DNA of 42,905 nt from a virus: positions 1 to 42,905 of IMG/VR virus record IMGVR_UViG_3300025099_000044. The stretch is one strand, 5' to 3'. The notes beneath the pieces are model-generated. The model worked only from the letters and a program-made list of their open reading frames with translations. It made no database searches and had not been told where the DNA came from. Positions within the stretch are counted from its first letter, which is position 1. The number at the start of each line of letters is the position of its first letter. Both the position numbers and the translations under genes were made by a program. Positions 8,373 through 15,425 of the stretch are shown one piece after another.

Positions 8373-8606
8373 ATGGCTATTGCCAAAGATGAACCAGTAC
8401 TAATACTGGGAGATAAAAAATTTATTATTAGTGAGCTTTCTCCAGAAGCGCAGTATTGCGTTGCTCAAATGAATGATATCCAAGCAGATATAACAAATAC
8501 ATCTAAAATCTTGGACAGGCATCGAGCAGCTTATTCTGGCTTTCAGGTACAATTAGAAAAACTAGTTGCCGAGCCAGAAGAAACTGGAGAGACAGATGAG
8601 TCGTAA
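8373..8606 (+). CDS. Small conserved phage protein, 77 aa (DUF6447-like)
   Basis: Starts nine bases after the RNR stop with AGGAG well placed before the ATG. The product has the layout of small marine-phage proteins of the DUF6447 type: a short N-terminal strand region with GDKKFIISELSPEAQ, then a helical segment (QYCVAQMNDIQADI) running into a charged, acidic C-terminus. The family has no established function. Its end overlaps the SecB-like gene by 11 bases, so the two are translationally linked. The family name is offered from pattern memory only. Confidence 0.7.
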   Translation: MAIAKDEPVLILGDKKFIISELSPEAQYCVAQMNDIQADITNTSKILDRHRAAYSGFQVQLEKLVAEPEETGETDES

Positions 8607-9009
8607 AGAAATAAAAGTAGAAAAAATATTTCTAAAAGATTCTAGCATAGAAACCCCCTCTAGTCCTGATCAATTTCAATATGAAAGAGAGGAAGTTATA
8701 GTTAAGATGGACATGAATGTTCGAAATAAACTGTTACTAGCTCCTTCGTATTATGAAGTCATATTAAGTTTAGGCATTACGGGAAAAGATCAAGAACATT
8801 TTTTATATATAGTTAATGTAATATATGGGGGTTTATTTGACTTAAAAGGGTATAACAAAGAAGAAGCAGAGAAATGTGTTGCTGTAGACTGTCCTCATAT
8901 ACTATTCCCATATGCTCAACAGTTTGTATATGATATGACTTCAAAATCAGGATTCCACCCAGCTTTTCTACAACCTGTGGATTTTGAGGAAGACTTTGAA
9001 GATTCGTAG
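8596..9009 (+). CDS. secB: SecB-like protein-export chaperone
   Basis: Homologue of the bacterial cytosolic chaperone SecB, which holds preproteins unfolded for SecA/SecYEG. The 137-aa product follows SecB end to end. It has IFLKDSSIETPSSPDQFQ (SecB has YVKDLSFE-P-AP-x-F), a YYEVILSLGITG strand, FLYIVNVIYGGLFDLKG (SecB has AFxxEVxQAGIFxIxG), then CPHILFPYAQQFVYDM (SecB has CPNxLFPYARE). It ends in GFHPAFLQPVDFEEDF (SecB has GFPxLxLxPVNFDALY). The ATG at 8596 is chosen over an upstream in-frame codon at 8566 because GGAGAG lies 8 bases before it and SecB similarity begins there. A SecB gene is not a standard phage component. Clients could be phage structural or modification proteins or redirected host preproteins; none can be deduced here. 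Confidence 0.88.
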   Translation: MSRKEIKVEKIFLKDSSIETPSSPDQFQYEREEVIVKMDMNVRNKLLLAPSYYEVILSLGITGKDQEHFLYIVNVIYGGLFDLKGYNKEEAEKCVAVDCPHILFPYAQQFVYDMTSKSGFHPAFLQPVDFEEDFEDS

Positions 9010-9670
9010 ACTTAATTGGGATAAAGAAAAACATGGATTAGTTTGGAAGATATCAAATGTATTTAAAGAATACGAAATGGAACATATTTTAGCAAAACTT
9101 CCTGAGAATGAAATAAAAATACCTAAGGAACACAGAACACTTGATAAAGCAGGTTTTACAACAAGTAGGGCTGCCTATAGGGCGTCCTCCTTACCTGCTT
9201 TAGAAGGCAGAATGGAACGAAAATTAAAAGAGTTATATCCTACTCTTAGAAAAGAATACAGAGATGAGGGTGTAAGTGTTTATGCGGATAATTATGCTGA
9301 AACCAAAGATAATTGGGACACTAAACATTTCAAGCTTGATATGTCTTTACAAGGAACTCCTAAAGGAATGAATTATCAGATGCATACAGATGTTGATTTT
9401 AAATTTCTTACAGCATTAGTATATATTGCTCCAGAGTGTTCAGAGCCTACTTACTTTCATGCTTATCCAGGATATAGAATTAAGTATAGAGAAGAAGATA
9501 AAAACCCTATAATGGCGGTTCCTTGGGAAATAAATGCAGGTTATATCTTTTTAGCGGGTTCAAAATCACAACACAGCTATTCTAATAATATATTTAATAC
9601 AGATAGATATGTTATATTAGCAAACTTAGTATCAGATACAGATAAGATGCAAGACTTAGGAACTTGGTAA
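8996..9670 (+). CDS. Putative 2-oxoglutarate/Fe(II)-dependent oxygenase
   Basis: The likely fold is a double-stranded beta-helix (jelly roll) of the prolyl-hydroxylase-like superfamily. The metal triad appears as HTD in NYQMHTDVDFKFL and a distal His in SKSQHSYSNN. Arg in FNTDRYVILANL is placed to bind 2-oxoglutarate. The strand alternation LTALVYIAP...GYIFLAG supports the jelly roll. The start is taken as TTG at 8996 (MKIRRLNWDK), with GAGGA five bases upstream; another TTG at 8984 is possible. The gene overlaps the end of the SecB-like gene. The substrate is unknown: protein, nucleobase or small molecule are all possible. Phages often carry such oxygenases in DNA or protein modification modules. 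Confidence 0.78.
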   Translation: MKIRRLNWDKEKHGLVWKISNVFKEYEMEHILAKLPENEIKIPKEHRTLDKAGFTTSRAAYRASSLPALEGRMERKLKELYPTLRKEYRDEGVSVYADNYAETKDNWDTKHFKLDMSLQGTPKGMNYQMHTDVDFKFLTALVYIAPECSEPTYFHAYPGYRIKYREEDKNPIMAVPWEINAGYIFLAGSKSQHSYSNNIFNTDRYVILANLVSDTDKMQDLGTW

Positions 9671-10365
9671 TGCATTTTCAAGACTTAATAGACCCTATGA
9701 CTTTAGATGAATTTCATACAAAGTATCATAGAAAAAAGTTTTGTGTTATAAAGGGCAATGCTTGGAGAAAAAATCTATTTACAAAGATTATTACTTGGGA
9801 AGAGTTTTCAACTTATATAAATAATGATAGAGCAGTAAGTGGTTTACAGGCAATACTACCTGGAGGTGAAAAACTATGTATGGAAAAAGATAACCTTTAT
9901 AAGCATAGAAAACCTAGCTGGTCTAAAGAGTTTTATTATGAAAAAGAATATTTGCATAAAATATGGAAAGATAATGGCTCTATCATCTTAACAAAAGCTT
10001 CTCTACTAACTAAAGAAATTTCTGCAATAGCTGGTGCTATAGAAAAATACTTTGAAGGTGCTGCTGATGCTCACTTTTATTGTAGTAGAGCTAAAGATGG
10101 TTGGTCGTTTCCCTTCCATAGAGATAATGATGATAATTGGTTAGTTCATGCACACGGAACAGTAAGGTGGACGGTTAATAATTCTTTATCAAATTTACCA
10201 GACGATAATACAGAATTTGATTTAACAGCGGGGGATTTATTATATATTCCTAAAGGCTTAATACATAAAGCAGTTGCTCAAACAAGAAGAATATCAATAT
10301 CAGTTCCTTTGTTAGAAAACCACACACCTAAGCCACTAGATAGAATTTATTACGACTTTGCGTAG
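9670..10365 (+). CDS. Cupin/JmjC-like putative Fe(II) oxygenase
   Basis: The 231-aa protein starts at ATG 9670 in a TAATG overlap with the previous stop. A TTG two codons upstream opens the longer frame, but AGGA supports the ATG. An N-terminal FxxxYxxKxFCVIKGN segment resembles the entry region of JmjC/cupin_8 hydroxylases. The metal site appears as WSFPFHRDNDDNWL (H-x-D) with a later GDLLYIPKGLIHKAVA (His), a typical cupin tail in which the protein provides PxG and His. With the preceding gene it forms a pair of different Fe(II)-oxygenase-like proteins. The substrate is unknown; protein hydroxylation is plausible. The gene ends 30 bases inside the convergent methyltransferase gene. Confidence 0.75.
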   Translation: MHFQDLIDPMTLDEFHTKYHRKKFCVIKGNAWRKNLFTKIITWEEFSTYINNDRAVSGLQAILPGGEKLCMEKDNLYKHRKPSWSKEFYYEKEYLHKIWKDNGSIILTKASLLTKEISAIAGAIEKYFEGAADAHFYCSRAKDGWSFPFHRDNDDNWLVHAHGTVRWTVNNSLSNLPDDNTEFDLTAGDLLYIPKGLIHKAVAQTRRISISVPLLENHTPKPLDRIYYDFA

Positions 10366-10869
10366 TACTAAAACTAAGTCATCTTGCTTAGGGTTATCTC
10401 TAGCAAAGTCTATAGATTCTATAAAAGCATACTTTTTTATTAAGTTAATCCACCAATCTGCTGGTTTAACAATTAAATGAGCATTTCTACCGTCTGGCAA
10501 AGTTTCTCGAGCTTCTTTCATTGATATAGCAACAAATGCTTTTTTACTAAACTTGGAAACCATGTGTTTTAGTACTGATTCTATATATTCTGGCTCTACA
10601 TGCTCTAACACATCTGTACATAGTACATAATCTACAGGTTTTGGATCTCTTGACCATTTAGGTACAGCTGGATCATAATTACGAACTATTATAGGTAAAA
10701 ACCAAGGTAAGTTTTCTCCTTTACCACACCCATAATCTAACATATCTTTTATATCATTTTTGTATATCCAATTACAAATTCTTATAATATTACCTCTTGG
10801 TCCCGTTCCCCAGTCTTCATTTTCTTCATGTAGTTCTTCTAGCTGTTTTCTATATTTATCTGATATCAC
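10336..10869 (-). CDS. SAM-dependent methyltransferase (class I)
   Basis: The 177-aa Rossmann-fold methyltransferase has motif I MLDYGCGKGENLPWF, a motif II acidic turn in VRNYDPAVPKW, and motif IV VDYVLCTDVLEHVEP. This set is typical of type 11/12 small-molecule or protein methyltransferases rather than DNA methylases: no NPPY or DPPY is seen. It is the last gene of the leftward arm. Its 3' end overlaps the rightward oxygenase gene by 30 bases, and its start overlaps the previous gene by 14. Neighbouring glycosyltransferase-like genes suggest that it modifies a glycan or a tail protein; this is inference. Confidence 0.85.
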   Translation of the reverse strand: MISDKYRKQLEELHEENEDWGTGPRGNIIRICNWIYKNDIKDMLDYGCGKGENLPWFLPIIVRNYDPAVPKWSRDPKPVDYVLCTDVLEHVEPEYIESVLKHMVSKFSKKAFVAISMKEARETLPDGRNAHLIVKPADWWINLIKKYAFIESIDFARDNPKQDDLVLVLRKVVINSI

Positions 10870-11566
10870 TTAACGCTTTCCTCATTTTTGATATTCTAAT
10901 TTTTGATAGATTTCCTAAATACTCAATACGCTTTCTATATTTGGGAGATAAACCGTCCATATAAGGTAATAGTTTTTCAAAGTGATAGGCATAGGTTTCG
11001 TCTACATTTATAGTATCTTTATGTATACAATCATTATAATTATGTATAATAGCCTTTTCGCCGTCTACTCCATAATGTAAAGCGTCTATAGTTGCACACG
11101 CTTCTTTGGCAAAAAGAATATCCTCTTTATGATTCATTGTTCTAGGCATATACAATACTTTTTTAGGAATAACACCTCTATCTGATTGAGGAATAGAATC
11201 CCACTTCTCAGGATTAATTACAAATACGGATAAGTCTAATAAATTTGGAGTTATATTTTTATCAACTAAAGGGTAATGTTGTTTGAGTCTATCGTCTGTT
11301 ATATAAACCCCTCTCCTACTAACACAAAGAGGAAAGTCTTTTACCTTATCAGGTAATTCAATTTCTCTATCCACAACCAAACCACTTCTTAGTACTAAAG
11401 TAATACCTTTTGCGTATTTAAAAGTAGTAGGAAATCTATCACCAGGATTACAGGAAACAACTGTATAAGGTACAGTTGCCATATTTTTATGTAAAGAGTT
11501 TACCGTTAGGTTTACTAGATTATTCTCTTCCAGTATCAAGACTCTTAGGTCGTTCGGGGGGAACAT
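10856..11566 (-). CDS. Hypothetical protein, possibly glycosyltransferase-like (GT-A)
   Basis: The 236-aa product starts at the ATG at 11566 with AAGGAAG upstream, overlapping the preceding gene by 47 bases. The N-terminus (LRVLILEENNLVNLTVNSL) and the following VVSCNPGDRFP resemble the first strand-helix and the NDGS-type turn of family 2 glycosyltransferases. A later LLDLSVFVINPEKWDSIP resembles acceptor-side segments of GT-A enzymes. A canonical DxD motif is not obvious, so the call is tentative. Neighbours (a GT-B-like protein and a methyltransferase) support a sugar-modification cassette. Confidence 0.45.
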   Translation of the reverse strand: MFPPNDLRVLILEENNLVNLTVNSLHKNMATVPYTVVSCNPGDRFPTTFKYAKGITLVLRSGLVVDREIELPDKVKDFPLCVSRRGVYITDDRLKQHYPLVDKNITPNLLDLSVFVINPEKWDSIPQSDRGVIPKKVLYMPRTMNHKEDILFAKEACATIDALHYGVDGEKAIIHNYNDCIHKDTINVDETYAYHFEKLLPYMDGLSPKYRKRIEYLGNLSKIRISKMRKALSDIR

Positions 11567-12428
11567 GAGTTTCTTCCTTAAAATAGTTAAAAAATTCGTT
11601 TATTTTTTCTTGGGGATTCCAAGATTGGTGGTGTATTAAACCAGAGTACTTACAAGAAAATAAGCGTTTGACTCCAGTTTCATTAAAGGTCATATTTCTA
11701 GATAGTGCATTATAAATTGTTGTATATGTAAGAAATTTCTCTAACCCTTTCTGATCGTATAGTTTTACTTTTTTACCTTTGGCAAGAGCAACAATACCCA
11801 TTTCTGAGTTAGTGCAACACCCAACAGTTTCTGCGTTGTTTAATATAGCATGACCAGAAAATTTCTTATCTATAATTGATTCTTCACCAAAACTATTTTT
11901 CAAATCACTCAGAGCAAAGGGAGATGTTAAAGGGTGACATTTAAGTTTTGCCCCGTACACATCTATAGCTTGTTTTATTTTTGTACGGTCTATTACATCA
12001 TTTAATATATTAGTGCCGGGTAAAAATATAACAAACGGATATGATAGGTTTGTTTTCCTTAATTTATATTTATCATTATCGCTATCAACTACATCTTTAA
12101 ATATTTCTTCACCTTCTTCGGTTATTTCACTTTGAACTACCTCATTCATTAACTTAGTGCAGTATAGACTAGATGCGGGTCTTAAATATACAAATTTTGT
12201 CATTATATCTGTATATACATAACCTCTTATCTTTTTCTCACCCTGAAAATCATACCAAAGATCATACTCTAAATTAGTGTAATTATTTCCTTTTTCAGGT
12301 AATAAATAATGAATAGGGTCTAGTTTATCATTTTGTTTAGATCGCCTTGTAGTTCCTGATTTAAAAAAGTGAGCTACGTCATCATTTAAAACATCATTAA
12401 AAGCTAATATTTCAATCCCTTTCGCCAT
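11520..12428 (-). CDS. Glycosyltransferase-like protein (GT-B, capsule-synthesis type)
   Basis: The 302-aa product has the C-terminal arrangement of GT-B nucleotide-sugar enzymes and capsule-synthesis proteins. AKLKCHPLTSP (the K-x-HP segment) is followed by ILNNAETVGCCTNSEMGIVALAKGKKVKLYD. That region matches the usual pattern of a hydrophobic strand, a T/S-rich nucleotide loop, EAL-like helix and GK-x-V strand. A GAGAGG ribosome site precedes the ATG. The N-terminal half is not recognisable. It may glycosylate a phage tail component or alter a host surface glycan. The Asn/Thr/Ser-rich repeat protein encoded three genes upstream would be an obvious acceptor candidate, but this is inference. 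Confidence 0.6.
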   Translation of the reverse strand: MAKGIEILAFNDVLNDDVAHFFKSGTTRRSKQNDKLDPIHYLLPEKGNNYTNLEYDLWYDFQGEKKIRGYVYTDIMTKFVYLRPASSLYCTKLMNEVVQSEITEEGEEIFKDVVDSDNDKYKLRKTNLSYPFVIFLPGTNILNDVIDRTKIKQAIDVYGAKLKCHPLTSPFALSDLKNSFGEESIIDKKFSGHAILNNAETVGCCTNSEMGIVALAKGKKVKLYDQKGLEKFLTYTTIYNALSRNMTFNETGVKRLFSCKYSGLIHHQSWNPQEKINEFFNYFKEETHVPPERPKSLDTGRE

Positions 12429-12558
12429 TTTCTAGCCTCTCGATCTTTTCTTCGAGCTCTTCCATGCGCTCTTCCATATCTTTAAAGTGTTCGATTATAA
12501 TAGAGAGAGTTTCTTCAGCTCTTCTAGTTATAACCTTTAATTCTTCTTTTATTTCCAT
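12412..12558 (-). CDS. Small coiled-coil protein, 48 aa
   Basis: This short gene fills the interval between the 302-aa and 187-aa genes, overlapping both (17 and 10 bases). It starts at ATG 12558 (MEIKEELKVITRRAEE) and ends with TGA at 12412-12414. The product is highly charged and an almost perfect heptad coiled coil (FKDMEERMEELEEKIERL). The open frame and four-base-scale packing match the style of the operon. The ribosome site is weak. It could be an oligomerisation partner of a neighbouring modification enzyme; function is unknown. Confidence 0.65.
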   Translation of the reverse strand: MEIKEELKVITRRAEETLSIIIEHFKDMEERMEELEEKIERLENGERD

Positions 12559-13112
12559 TGTCCAAATTCCTGTTCAAATTCTAAGTTATAATCTTCCTGA
12601 CGCTTACTAAAGTAATCAGGATCTGCTTTTTCTCCCTGTATAAATTCATTTACTACTCTATTGGTATTAGCCCAAGTTTTATAGTAATTAGTTTTTCTAA
12701 GTCTTGTTGCAAACTTAAATGTTTTCTCGTGATTCTGTGCAAAGAAAACTATATATTCACCATTAGTTATGTCAGTATTTCCTATTACTTCATGCCAATC
12801 TGGGTGATCTTCTACAAAAACCAAGCCTCTATTCTGCGCTATAGCTTCTGTTTTTCGTGCTATTTTGAAAGTATCTTGTATACTCCACCTATCTTTTTCA
12901 AAAATTAAAAGTGTTATATCGTGTTTTGATAAATCTATATCTTTAATACACTTTTCAATATCTGAATCTGGTTTATCATTACTAAACTCTATAATATTTA
13001 ATCTATTAGATCTTCTTGCTTCTTTTGCATACGGACAAACAGGTAAGTTACCAAAATCTGAGTTAGGTACTTCTACAAATGTTTTAATCCATTCAAGGAT
13101 TTTTTGCTTCAT
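12549..13112 (-). CDS. Conserved hypothetical protein, DUF1415-like
   Basis: The 187-aa product contains a conserved-looking N-terminal motif, FGNLPVCPYAKEARRS, which resembles the LNLCPFA signature of DUF1415 proteins. It then has repeated acidic-hydrophobic strands (DITLLIFEKDRWSIQD) and an EDHPDWHEVIGN segment. The function of that family is not established. The single Cys in a CPYA turn could be functional. The start ATG at 13112 shares four bases with the stop of the next gene upstream (13112). The gene lies in the cassette with glycosyltransferase- and methyltransferase-like genes. Family attribution is weak. Confidence 0.6.
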   Translation of the reverse strand: MKQKILEWIKTFVEVPNSDFGNLPVCPYAKEARRSNRLNIIEFSNDKPDSDIEKCIKDIDLSKHDITLLIFEKDRWSIQDTFKIARKTEAIAQNRGLVFVEDHPDWHEVIGNTDITNGEYIVFFAQNHEKTFKFATRLRKTNYYKTWANTNRVVNEFIQGEKADPDYFSKRQEDYNLEFEQEFGQWK

Positions 13113-13675
13113 TATACTAATACCGTGATTATGTATTTTTTATAATTATGACCAAAGTAGTCTGCTTTGGTTTCACCAACCGTATAACTTATATGCCCTG
13201 CTACAACTGATTTTTCCCAAGCTGCTGCCATACCTGATCCTTCAATAACCCATGAAGAAAATGTAGCACAATTTTCAGATTTACTTTTAAAGAATGCATC
13301 TAATTTCTGGTAGTATTCAGCTGAATAACTCCAACCTTGACTACCACTAGCGTCTTCTCTCATCAAATCCATTCTATGACACATCATTTTAGGTCTGTCA
13401 CCATATCCACTTTCTCTTCCAGCATAATTATAATTAACAATTCTACCATCTATGTCTATTTTAAATATAGTTGTTCCTGTAACTCCATTTTGAAAAGCGT
13501 TTGCTACTACATCAAATTTTGCATCTTCAGATACATCTTTACTAGTGCCCATTTCTTCCCATAAAAGATTTGGAACAGGTGTTGCGTCTAAATAAGGTAA
13601 GGATTTATTAAAGCACTCTCTCAAAATTGCTTGATCTATATCGTCCCATGTTATTTCTGTTACTGTCATTGTCAT
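13112..13675 (-). CDS. Hypothetical protein downstream of the repeat protein, 187 aa
   Basis: The frame is open to 13750, inside the repeat-protein gene. The ATG at 13675 (MTMTVTEITWDDID) is preferred because it lies just after that gene's stop and has GGAG about 11 bases upstream; ATG 13669 is an alternative. The product is a mixed alpha/beta globular protein with TTIFKIDIDGRIVNYNYAG, a GWSYSAEYYQKLDAFF helix and a C-terminal YIITVLV strand. No enzyme motif is recognised. It directly follows the Thr-rich repeat protein gene, so it may be a virion partner, chaperone or modifier of it. Confidence 0.7.
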   Translation of the reverse strand: MTMTVTEITWDDIDQAILRECFNKSLPYLDATPVPNLLWEEMGTSKDVSEDAKFDVVANAFQNGVTGTTIFKIDIDGRIVNYNYAGRESGYGDRPKMMCHRMDLMREDASGSQGWSYSAEYYQKLDAFFKSKSENCATFSSWVIEGSGMAAAWEKSVVAGHISYTVGETKADYFGHNYKKYIITVLV

Positions 13676-13679
13676 TTTC

Positions 13680-15425
13680 TTAGCTCTCCGTCCAACTGTT
13701 AGCAGGATCAGTCGAATATCGTGAATTATGTGCGTCTGCTGAAGCAACATTTGTTACCTTATATCCGTTTGCTGACGCTGGATCAAATGTTACTCTTTCA
13801 TAAATAGTTGTATTAAAGTTACCTGAAGTATTTCTAGAGGTATTGTATGTAGTCGTAGTACTGTGTGTTGTATTATATGTTGTTGTTGTACTATGAGATG
13901 TCGCAGTAGCCCGAGTCGTATTATATGTAGTCGTTGTAGTCTGCGAAGTATTAAATGTAGTTGTTGTATTGTGCGAAGTATTATACGTAGTCGTCGTAGT
14001 ATTAGACGTTGCTGTATCGCGTGTAGTATTATATGTAGTTGTAGTATCCTTAGAAGTAGACCATTCTGTAGTCGTACTTTTAGAAGTAGCAAAAGTAGTT
14101 GTAGTATTAAACGTAGTTGTAGTACTGTGCGAAGTACTAGCAGTAGTCGTAGTAGTCTGTGACGTATTAAACGTAGTCGTTGTAGTCTGTGATGTATTAA
14201 ACGTAGTCGTTGTAGTCTGTGATGTATTAAACGTAGTAGTAGTGTCGTGAGTAGTATTGTAAGTAGTCGTAGTACTATGAGATGTACCATAAGTAGTTGT
14301 AGTACTCTTTGACGTATTATAACTAGTTGTTGTGCTTTTTGTAGTATTATAACTAGTTGTTGTAGACTTCGAAGTACCATAAGTAGTTGTAGTACTCTTT
14401 GACGTACCGTAAGTAGTTGTAGTACTGTGCGAGGTACCGAAAGAAGTATTACGACTTGTAGTCCAACTTGTAGTATAACTTGTAGTGTGACTTGTGCTAT
14501 TTGAGTTATTTACTGTAGTAATTCTTTGATATTGGTTGTGTTTACCCCAATATGTCCACCAACTAGTAGAAACACCTGTATTATATGAAGTGGTATAACT
14601 TGTAGTACGAGAAGTAGTCCACGAAGTACTACGAGATGTATTATAACTTGTTGTAGTACTCTTTGACGTATTATAACTTGTTGTGGTACTATGAGATGTA
14701 TTATAACTTGTTGTTGTACTGTGCGAAGTACCGTAAGTAGTTGTAGTACTGTGTGACGTACCATAAGTAGTTGTAGTACTATGAGATGTATTATAACTAG
14801 TTGTTGTAGACTTTGAAGTACTATAAGTAGTTGTAGTGGTTTTCGAAGTAGACCAAGTAGTTGTAGTATCTTTAGAAGTAGACCAAGTAGTTGTAGTATC
14901 TTTAGAAGTAGACCAAGTAGTTGTAGTATCCGCAGAAGTATTATAAGTAGTAGTAGTAGAATTTGAAGTACTTATAGTAGATGTTGTATTATAAGTAGTC
15001 GTAGTTGACTGCGACGTATTGAATGTAGTCGTAGTAGTTTTCGAAGTATTAAACGTAGTCGTAGTGTTATACGTAGTAGTAGTGTCGTGAGTAGTATTAT
15101 AAGTAGTTGAAGTAGTTTTAGACGTAGACCAAGTAGTTGTAGTATCGTGCGTAGTACTAAATGTTGTTGTCGTGTTATAAGTAGTTGTGGTACTTTTTGT
15201 AGTATTATAAGTAGTAGTTGTACTGTTTGAAGTACTAAAAGTTGTAGCGTATGTACCTGAAGTTTGTTGGGCTGTTCCGTAGATTGCGCTCCACGAAGTT
15301 GTTAAAGATCCGTCAGTTTCCTTTACTACAATATAATTGACCATATGGAGAGTACCAGCAGTTGCTTTGATGGCAATTGCTTTTGGTTCCTCTATCGCAT
15401 CTACGCTCCAAATTTTTATAGCCAT
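13680..15425 (-). CDS. Thr/Ser/Asn-rich decapeptide-repeat virion protein, probable fibre or adhesin
   Basis: The 581-aa product starts at ATG 15425 with AAAGGAG upstream. The first ~60 residues (MAIKIWSVDAIEEPKAIAIK at the start) and last ~50 are ordinary; the rest is about 40 copies of a ten-residue unit, T-[ST]-[KHQ]-[SDT]-T-T-T-[TS]-[YFW]-[NSG]. Some shortened six-residue units occur. Most units end in Asn followed by T-[ST], an N-x-S/T sequon. At the exact middle (about residues 280-310) the repeat is broken by an aromatic, basic insert, WWTYWGKHNQYQR, flanked by TS-rich half units. No signal peptide or membrane segment is seen. The regular spacing of Thr and aromatic residues suggests a beta-solenoid or stacked beta fibre. 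Position at the end of the fibre operon suggests a surface fibre. Function is inferred. Confidence 0.85.
   Translation of the reverse strand: MAIKIWSVDAIEEPKAIAIKATAGTLHMVNYIVVKETDGSLTTSWSAIYGTAQQTSGTYATTFSTSNSTTTTYNTTKSTTTTYNTTTTFSTTHDTTTTWSTSKTTSTTYNTTHDTTTTYNTTTTFNTSKTTTTTFNTSQSTTTTYNTTSTISTSNSTTTTYNTSADTTTTWSTSKDTTTTWSTSKDTTTTWSTSKTTTTTYSTSKSTTTSYNTSHSTTTTYGTSHSTTTTYGTSHSTTTSYNTSHSTTTSYNTSKSTTTSYNTSRSTSWTTSRTTSYTTSYNTGVSTSWWTYWGKHNQYQRITTVNNSNSTSHTTSYTTSWTTSRNTSFGTSHSTTTTYGTSKSTTTTYGTSKSTTTSYNTTKSTTTSYNTSKSTTTTYGTSHSTTTTYNTTHDTTTTFNTSQTTTTTFNTSQTTTTTFNTSQTTTTTASTSHSTTTTFNTTTTFATSKSTTTEWSTSKDTTTTYNTTRDTATSNTTTTTYNTSHNTTTTFNTSQTTTTTYNTTRATATSHSTTTTYNTTHSTTTTYNTSRNTSGNFNTTIYERVTFDPASANGYKVTNVASADAHNSRYSTDPANSWTES
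13835..15236 (-). repeat. 30-bp tandem coding repeat array in the Thr-rich protein gene
   Basis: About 40 imperfect 30-bp units encode the decapeptide repeat. Units at 14851-14880 and 14881-14910 are identical, and 14911-14940 differs from them at only three bases. Units at 14161-14250 are also nearly identical. Elsewhere Thr codons alternate (ACT, ACA, ACG), which keeps DNA identity lower than protein identity. Truncated 18-bp units are scattered through it. The array is interrupted at about 14505-14585 by the aromatic cassette. Near-identical runs are sites where copy number could change by slippage or recombination. Confidence 0.9.

Follow-up and report, generated by a model that had tools for sequence, protein, structure and literature searches.

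In bacteriophage T4, the chain of the fiber protein gp37 runs out to the tip and then back. Its terminal domain has been described as a six-stranded antiparallel beta needle with conserved flanks and internal receptor-determining residues (PMC9659904); the needle measures ~15 nm, and trimerization of gp37 requires gp57A, a small chaperone of 79 residues (PMC3004832). Serine-rich repeat adhesins combine a Ser/Thr-rich stalk with a binding region and are encoded beside cooperating cytoplasmic glycosyltransferases (PMC7661464), while mycobacteriophage-encoded glycosyltransferases are reported to modify capsid and tail tube proteins (Freeman et al. 2023, as cited in PMC10877033 and PMC12619734). 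Here, we describe a locus that recalls all three, in a stretch of 42,905 nucleotides (the window) covering positions 1 to 42,905 of virus record IMGVR_UViG_3300025099_000044, in which PHROGs identify siphovirus-type tail genes (a distal tail protein and tail proteins). The locus encodes a Thr-rich repeat protein of 581 amino acids (aa), here called REP, a small coiled-coil protein (CC), and two proteins with predicted glycosyltransferase (GT) folds of the GT-B and GT-A types (GTB and GTA). The original prediction, made from the letters of the window, proposed a cassette that adds and methylates sugars on a sequon-rich fiber, and it missed the symmetry of REP about its own center. The larger finding is a family of fibers whose protein sequences are palindromic.

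Threonine makes up 42% of the window REP (246 T, 96 S, and 43 N among 581 aa). The N-x-S/T sites emphasized in the original prediction number 34 against 25.1 ± 3.0 in 1,000 shuffles, a modest excess, and across 55 REP clusters (66 distinct full proteins clustered at 85%) their density lies between 1.6 and 7.6 per 100 aa, with a median Thr content of 36% and a minimum of 24%. Thr, not the sequon, is the constant feature of REP, and given the several-fold variation in sequon density among these proteins, N-linked (sequon-directed) glycosylation was put aside.

Each REP consists of conserved N- and C-terminal domains with Thr-rich repeats between them and a single interruption, the tip, defined as the 25-residue window with the lowest Ser plus Thr content; REPs lacking either end were excluded from the symmetry tests. 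In all 55 clusters, which span 230 to 2,084 aa and 15 GTB families (60% identity), the tip sits at 0.499 ± 0.043 of the repeat region, and the arm fraction stays within 0.42 to 0.56. The same measure, applied to 147 other Thr/Ser-rich open reading frames (ORFs) from these loci, has a standard deviation of 0.30 and places 33 of 147 within 0.39 to 0.64. The two arms match in length (r = 0.98) and change together: in 16 of 17 nonoverlapping close pairs (at least 70% identity in GTB and a difference of 20 aa or more in REP length), both arms had lengthened or shortened together (r = 0.96), for instance by 218 and 218, 13 and 14, or 37 and 39 residues. These matched changes sit far apart within the REP gene. 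A chain-internal tip between flanks of equal length, as in T4 gp37, is thus present in 55 of 55 clusters, and the tip is a candidate receptor-binding region.

The arms also mirror each other in the spacing of their aromatic residues. Aromatic spacings were read outward from the tip in arm 1, and their order was compared with that in arm 2, shuffled spacing orders serving as the null. For every REP of at least 800 aa (n = 16), the mirror score lay above all 100 shuffles (z of 4.3 to 15.1), with the axis at 0.50 to 0.51 of the repeat region, versus z of 0.2 to 3.8 for the parallel comparison in 15 of the same 16. The window REP gave a mirror P value of 0.02 and no parallel signal. At the best register, aromatics stood opposite aromatics 5.35 times as often as expected (20 REPs), partly by construction, because the register was picked on aromatics. 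Along the chain, the observed-to-expected ratio of aromatic pairs was ~0.3 at most odd lags and mostly 1.3 to 2.3 at even lags (1,057 odd versus 5,662 even pairs in REPs; 2,150 versus 2,338 in the other Thr/Ser-rich ORFs), and 2,702 of 2,854 arm aromatics shared one phase of their arm. The aromatic face is made up mainly of T, F, R, Y, and K and the opposite face of T, S, A, N, and G, with K/R/H/Q/E at 16% on the former versus 2% on the latter. Such alternation would fit an extended beta strand with one bulky face and one face of small residues. Together with equal, covarying, and mirrored arms, it suggests a fold-back ribbon, probably trimeric, as the simplest form, and we consider it probable that REP is a fold-back fiber.

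Relatives of the locus were gathered by alignment with GTB (best 80 of 101), with GTA (best 80 of 107), and with the REP C terminus (best 80 of 84), yielding 224 loci in total (designated by L-numbers), which together with the window form 81 genome groups by shared 31-mers. GTA lay directly behind GTB in 11 of 11 viral loci of the initial set, with a Thr-rich repeat gene in front in 10 of 11. The conserved unit consists of REP, CC (~50 residues), GTB, and the overlapping GTA, and it is complete in 66 of 81 groups. The others comprise 8 groups with CC-GTB-GTA and no REP in the piece examined, 3 that stop inside GTB, 2 that stop in or just after CC, 1 that starts inside GTA, and 1 (L217) with REP only. 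Retrieval through REP alone gave 45 groups, of which 39 carry the trio, 5 reach a contig end, and 1 lacks it. A median of 124 bp separates the REP end from the GTB start, the two genes sharing a strand in all 63 groups measured, and GTB and GTA overlap by 7 to 130 bp in every group measured, suggesting that their products form a complex. The product of the gene upstream of REP terminates with W[YF]V in 45 of 58 groups as counted by script and, on the same list read by eye, with G[YHF][VI][WF][YF][VI] in 57 of 58. L012, L013, and L017 each carry two REP genes per genome, one ahead of the trio and the other past GTA near accessory genes. No bacterial or prophage relatives of GTB or GTA were found in the species-genome collection.

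The linkage largely withstood a check proposed with the original prediction, namely, whether relatives carry the cassette without the repeat protein. When the whole contigs of the 8 REP-less groups were searched, REP was located elsewhere in 3 (one being an N-terminal match only, near the contig end), and none was found in the 5- to 36-kb pieces of the remaining 5. In the examined members of one clade (L003, L036, L039, L103, and L107), CC-GTB-GTA lies away from REP and is followed, after a few small genes, by a gene identified in L103 as the terminase large subunit. REP is kept elsewhere in three genomes whose trio is near terminase, and therefore the coupling survives relocation.

AlphaFold2 models built on 56-sequence alignments agree with the GT-B-like and GT-A-like folds guessed previously, with predicted local distance difference test (pLDDT) scores of 91.5 for GTB (mbcaa39fff8eb) and 93.9 for GTA (m30f1d351eb49), and both proteins almost certainly adopt glycosyltransferase folds. 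The GTB model matches KpsC, WbbB, and KrkA, retaining beta-Kdo (3-deoxy-D-manno-oct-2-ulosonic acid) transferases of families GT99/GT107/GT140 (for KpsC, Foldseek E value of 2.5e-5; Z of 9.8 and root mean square deviation [RMSD] of 4.1 over 213 residues) and, through a single domain, polysialyltransferase (Z of 9.4, 131 residues). K163, H165, P166, N207, S208, and E209 are invariant in 56 of 56 GTB sequences; the (K/R)xHP motif is described as common to Kdo transferases and sialyltransferases and as contacting cytidine monophosphate (CMP) (PMC12887879). Pfam recognized Capsule_synth in 5 of 56 members (best E value of 8e-4). Judging from the model and this motif, GTB is likely an active enzyme using a CMP-sugar. 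The GTA model has a GT8-type GT-A fold (Foldseek E value of 5e-5 against LgtC), its best structural match being pneumococcal GlyE (Z of 13.2, RMSD of 3.4, 180 residues), followed by WbbM (Z of 12.3) and LgtC (Z of 11.8), with glycogenin, UGGT, and LARGE also matched; Pfam gave no convincing match for GTA members. GTA would be a partner or a metal-independent second enzyme and may be noncatalytic. Database matches of CC were of the unspecific kind usual for coiled coils, and CC is a candidate trimerization or folding chaperone.

Table 1. Positions of REP, its parts, and neighboring genes in the window
Feature	Position	Strand	Evidence or remark
Tail fiber gene, 1,350 aa	15437..19489	-	PHROG tail fiber, E 6e-15; precedes REP; C terminus GHVWYVI
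REP, Thr-rich predicted fold-back fiber protein, 581 aa	13680..15425	-	
REP N-terminal base domain, conserved, ~aa 1-55	15261..15425	-	32-sequence alignment
REP arm 1, ~aa 56-279, TTTTYNTSKS-type repeats	14589..15260	-	
REP central tip, ~aa 280-305, minimum Thr/Ser density	14511..14588	-	Center at 0.50 of repeat region
REP arm 2, ~aa 306-539, mirrors arm 1	13809..14510	-	Axis at residue 299, P = 0.02
REP C-terminal base domain, conserved	13683..13808	-	31-sequence alignment
Accessory gene g212, 187 aa, adjoins REP in a subclade	13112..13675	-	Homologues in 9/81 groups
Accessory DUF6875 gene	12549..13112	-	Pfam DUF6875, E 1.2e-5; DUF1415 only 0.024
CC, small coiled coil, 48 aa	12412..12558	-	Homologues in 79/81 groups (66 + 8 + 3 + 2)
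GTB, predicted GT-B-fold protein with KxHP, 302 aa	11520..12428	-	AlphaFold2 model; KpsC/WbbB/KrkA and polysialyltransferase matches
GTA, predicted GT8-like GT-A-fold protein without DxD, 236 aa	10856..11566	-	Model; GlyE, WbbM, LgtC, glycogenin, UGGT matches
Methyltransferase, local to window genome	10336..10869	-	Pfam Methyltransf_23, E 1.8e-7; 0/81 groups
JmjC-type oxygenase (JmjC_2), occasional module neighbor	9664..10365	+	Pfam, E 8e-11; 4/81 groups
Phage SecB, occasional module neighbor	8566..9009	+	Pfam, E 3e-33; 6/81 groups

The tight operon beside the repeat protein was correctly described, all of its genes lying on the minus strand and adjacent ones from REP to the methyltransferase overlapping or almost so, apart from one unlisted 187-aa gene (13675-13112). 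Its membership had to be revised: in tblastn searches with the window proteins (E ≤ 1e-4), the methyltransferase recurs in 0 of 81 groups and the DUF6875 gene, previously labeled DUF1415-like, in 1, which does not support either as a part of the cassette, with the 187-aa gene in 9, SecB in 6, the JmjC oxygenase in 4, and a 228-aa gene in 3. The proposal to add and methylate sugars therefore fails as a system, while its other half, enzymes acting on the repeat fiber, gains from the linkage of two GT-fold genes to a Thr-rich fiber in 66 of 81 groups. SecB, the 228-aa gene, which by eye has the look of a 2-oxoglutarate oxygenase and stands beside the JmjC oxygenase, and JmjC_2 itself recur around the module in a subclade (window 8566-10365, plus strand; L002:1330-4661), where they might serve REP as chaperone and hydroxylases. 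In the window, Rfam and tRNA searches gave no matches, nor did the GT2 family PF00535.

The arrangement recurs in cultured phages. GTB homologues were found in 29 named-phage records, ten of which were examined (KVP40, QD01, F86, D479, BL199, BL198, Lullwater, Quill_5.2, Cr30, and DLP6), the Thr-rich genes being located by reading the GTB neighbors and the tips picked by eye. A Thr-rich gene stands one or two genes ahead of the GTB homologue in 9 of the 10 records. In KVP40, two 54-residue arms flank TKGSY in KVP40.0254, which is followed by the coiled coil KVP40.0255 and the GTB homologue KVP40.0256. Arm lengths are 50/50 in QD01_260, 57/59 in F86, 49/52 in D479, 98/96 in Lullwater gp41, 96/100 in BL199, 47/53 in Cr30, and 98/65 in Quill, and in four Vibrio phage proteins, 48 of 48 arm aromatics keep one phase within their arm. 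The F86 (L244:3077-3634) and D479 (L245:2942-3454) proteins are unannotated Ser/Thr-rich hairpin-like ORFs ahead of the GTB homologues; they carry Cys close to the tip on both sides (CSKGGC and CWSSGKSGSC). DLP6 has CC-GTB-GTA plus a Thr-rich C-terminal end on the baseplate wedge protein AAY80_265 (L241:1408-5274), and no separate REP was found near the trio. GTA was not found in named phages with three queries, and a GTA profile run on five named-phage pieces found a weak homologue in DLP6 only (E value of 8e-7); KVP40.0257, the gene after GTB, was excluded as a GTA homologue by hhalign. The full-length REP of L152 had no tblastn match in named phages. N-terminal domains differ between phage groups, pointing to arms, tip, and enzyme that travel together while the anchor changes. 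A proteome of KVP40-like virions has been published, which might already reveal whether the particle contains the KVP40.0254-type protein, and phage 6E351A, a KVP40 relative, is described as having a recombination hotspot of uncharacterized function at 125 to 130 kb (PMC12028318). The KVP40 module (L237, 131 to 133 kb) may lie close to this hotspot.

We propose a model, slightly favored overall, of a fold-back tail fiber with dedicated maturation proteins. Conserved domains at the N and C termini would anchor REP to the tail fiber encoded just before it, as suggested by the order of the genes and by the GHVWYV-type end that such neighbors share. Its chain would run outward as a single long beta strand, turn at the variable tip, and return antiparallel, most likely within a trimer forming a six-stranded needle that resembles the tip of T4 gp37, with arms of ~70 to 970 residues, i.e., a span of ~23 to 320 nm at 0.33 nm per residue. 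CC would probably aid the meeting of the three chains, as gp57A does in T4. GTB, of the CMP-sugar type, would probably act in the cytoplasm to add a sugar to the Thr/Ser-rich arms, GTA being its partner or a second transferase, possibly noncatalytic, and a coat of glycan would maintain the solubility of the Thr/aromatic ribbon and protect the exposed fiber. That GTB and GTA act on REP is likely; that a sugar is really transferred is somewhat less so, while still favored. The broadest form of the proposal, for which we see an even chance, is a class of protein-palindrome fibers with two self-matching Thr-rich beta arms (up to ~970 residues each), a mid-sequence receptor tip, growth by matched insertions, and a cotranslated GT-B/GT-A pair glycosylating the arms during folding, recurring with different anchors in marine siphoviruses, KVP40-like giants, and Caulobacter phages.

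Several results weigh against this model, beginning with the enzymes. GTB lacks the QxxxD nucleophile at the aligned position (all 56 sequences have G at 138, and none has D at 142, the equivalence being taken from the preceding strand); a GTNIL-like stretch stands where retaining enzymes have QxxxD, and a stray QxxxD string occurs in the 130-150 block of 2 of 56, not at 138/142. GTA has no DxD: residues 61 and 62 are [SG]-G in 56 of 56, with no Asp at 62, the position being assigned from topology, and a D.D string further along the 54-70 block occurs in 18 of 56. The folds are present but the hallmark motifs are missing, so neither protein fits its nearest family, and one or both may be noncatalytic partners. 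No sugar-nucleotide synthesis gene was noticed in the module, for which no systematic search was made, and L217 carries REP without the trio on an 11.8-kb fragment. It could be argued that GTB and GTA are former glycosyltransferases turned chaperones that hold the REP arms in register during folding with no sugar transfer. A fold-back fiber of up to 2,084 aa plausibly requires folding help, the hallmark catalytic residue sets are missing in 56 of 56 for both proteins, and the small coiled coil resembles a fiber chaperone. We nevertheless find this unlikely, as a pure chaperone need not retain the invariant CMP-contacting KxHP motif and N207-S208-E209 of GTB, and glycosylation is the simpler explanation for two different GT folds tied to a Thr-rich target.

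The remaining adverse results concern symmetry. L120 scored equally in mirror and parallel; among shorter REPs (368 to 581 aa, n = 16), mirror P values of ≤0.01 were obtained in only 4, two of which (L078 and L144) scored slightly higher in parallel. An early mirror-versus-parallel count on aromatics preferred the mirror in only 19 of 31, and a five-class sum score mostly preferred the parallel arrangement; this score was discarded as a test because the directional repeat motif biases it to parallel. Whole-protein mirror tests of 7 named-phage proteins were all nonsignificant (P of 0.20 to 0.73), and in the Caulobacter and Cr30 relatives, the aromatic phase is not kept. REP could instead be a disordered mucin-like or beta-solenoid stalk whose arms would be equal because repeats turn over around a fixed insertion, with no arm pairing; low-complexity repeats do shift length readily, and most short REPs individually show no significant mirror signal. 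Such turnover, however, predicts independent arm lengths, whereas the arms covary (r = 0.96, 16 of 17 pairs); in 16 of 16 long REPs, arm 2 mirrors the order of the irregular aromatic spacings of arm 1, and strict two-residue alternation speaks for extended beta strands, making the stalk improbable.

Least probable of all is that the enzymes act on another substrate, such as bases of the phage DNA or surface polysaccharide of the host, and adjoin the fiber merely as members of a late operon: phage glycosyltransferases do act on DNA and host antigens (PMC12619734) and GTB resembles capsule and lipopolysaccharide Kdo transferases, but the REP linkage in 66 of 81 groups survives relocation of the trio near terminase, and KVP40-like and Caulobacter phages again have a Thr-rich neighbor with a different N-terminal domain.

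If the fold-back fiber model is true, a widespread unannotated fiber type and its maturation enzymes would be recognizable by sequence alone, in metagenomes and in laboratory-grown phages (KVP40, QD01, and Caulobacter phages), giving roles to several proteins of KVP40-like and Caulobacter phages now labeled "hypothetical." It would provide a new setting in which to test whether glycosylation helps fibrous proteins to fold, and it would pose an evolutionary puzzle, as two distant arms of one gene would gain and lose length in step. No paper on a Thr-rich palindromic phage fiber was found in the literature searched on fibers and on phage and adhesin glycosylation, which left most subscription papers outside its coverage, and phmmer of REP against PDB sequences gave nothing at an E value of ≤1, a test weakened by low complexity.

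Among known systems, the retaining beta-Kdo transferases WbbB, KpsC, and KrkA share their fold and (K/R)xHP with GTB, which differs by lacking QxxxD at the aligned position. Compared by description, glycosylation in mycobacteriophage virions targets the C termini of capsid and tail tube proteins, whereas the candidate target here is a dedicated Thr-rich fiber. With the serine-rich repeat adhesins, the REP module shares a Ser/Thr-rich repeat protein, here a candidate acceptor, encoded beside GT genes (66 of 81 groups), although the REP repeats are Thr-rich and palindromic. GlyE, the best structural match of GTA, belongs to the PsrP glycosylation island. GtfA and GtfB were not among the matches listed for GTB or GTA, lists which exclude nothing, and no accessory Sec genes (SecA2/SecY2 and Asp proteins) were noticed, no search having been aimed at them. 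Like T4 gp37, REP has an internal tip between flanking segments and a small partner protein that is a candidate chaperone; it differs by its Thr-rich arms of up to ~970 residues and by the two GT-fold genes alongside.

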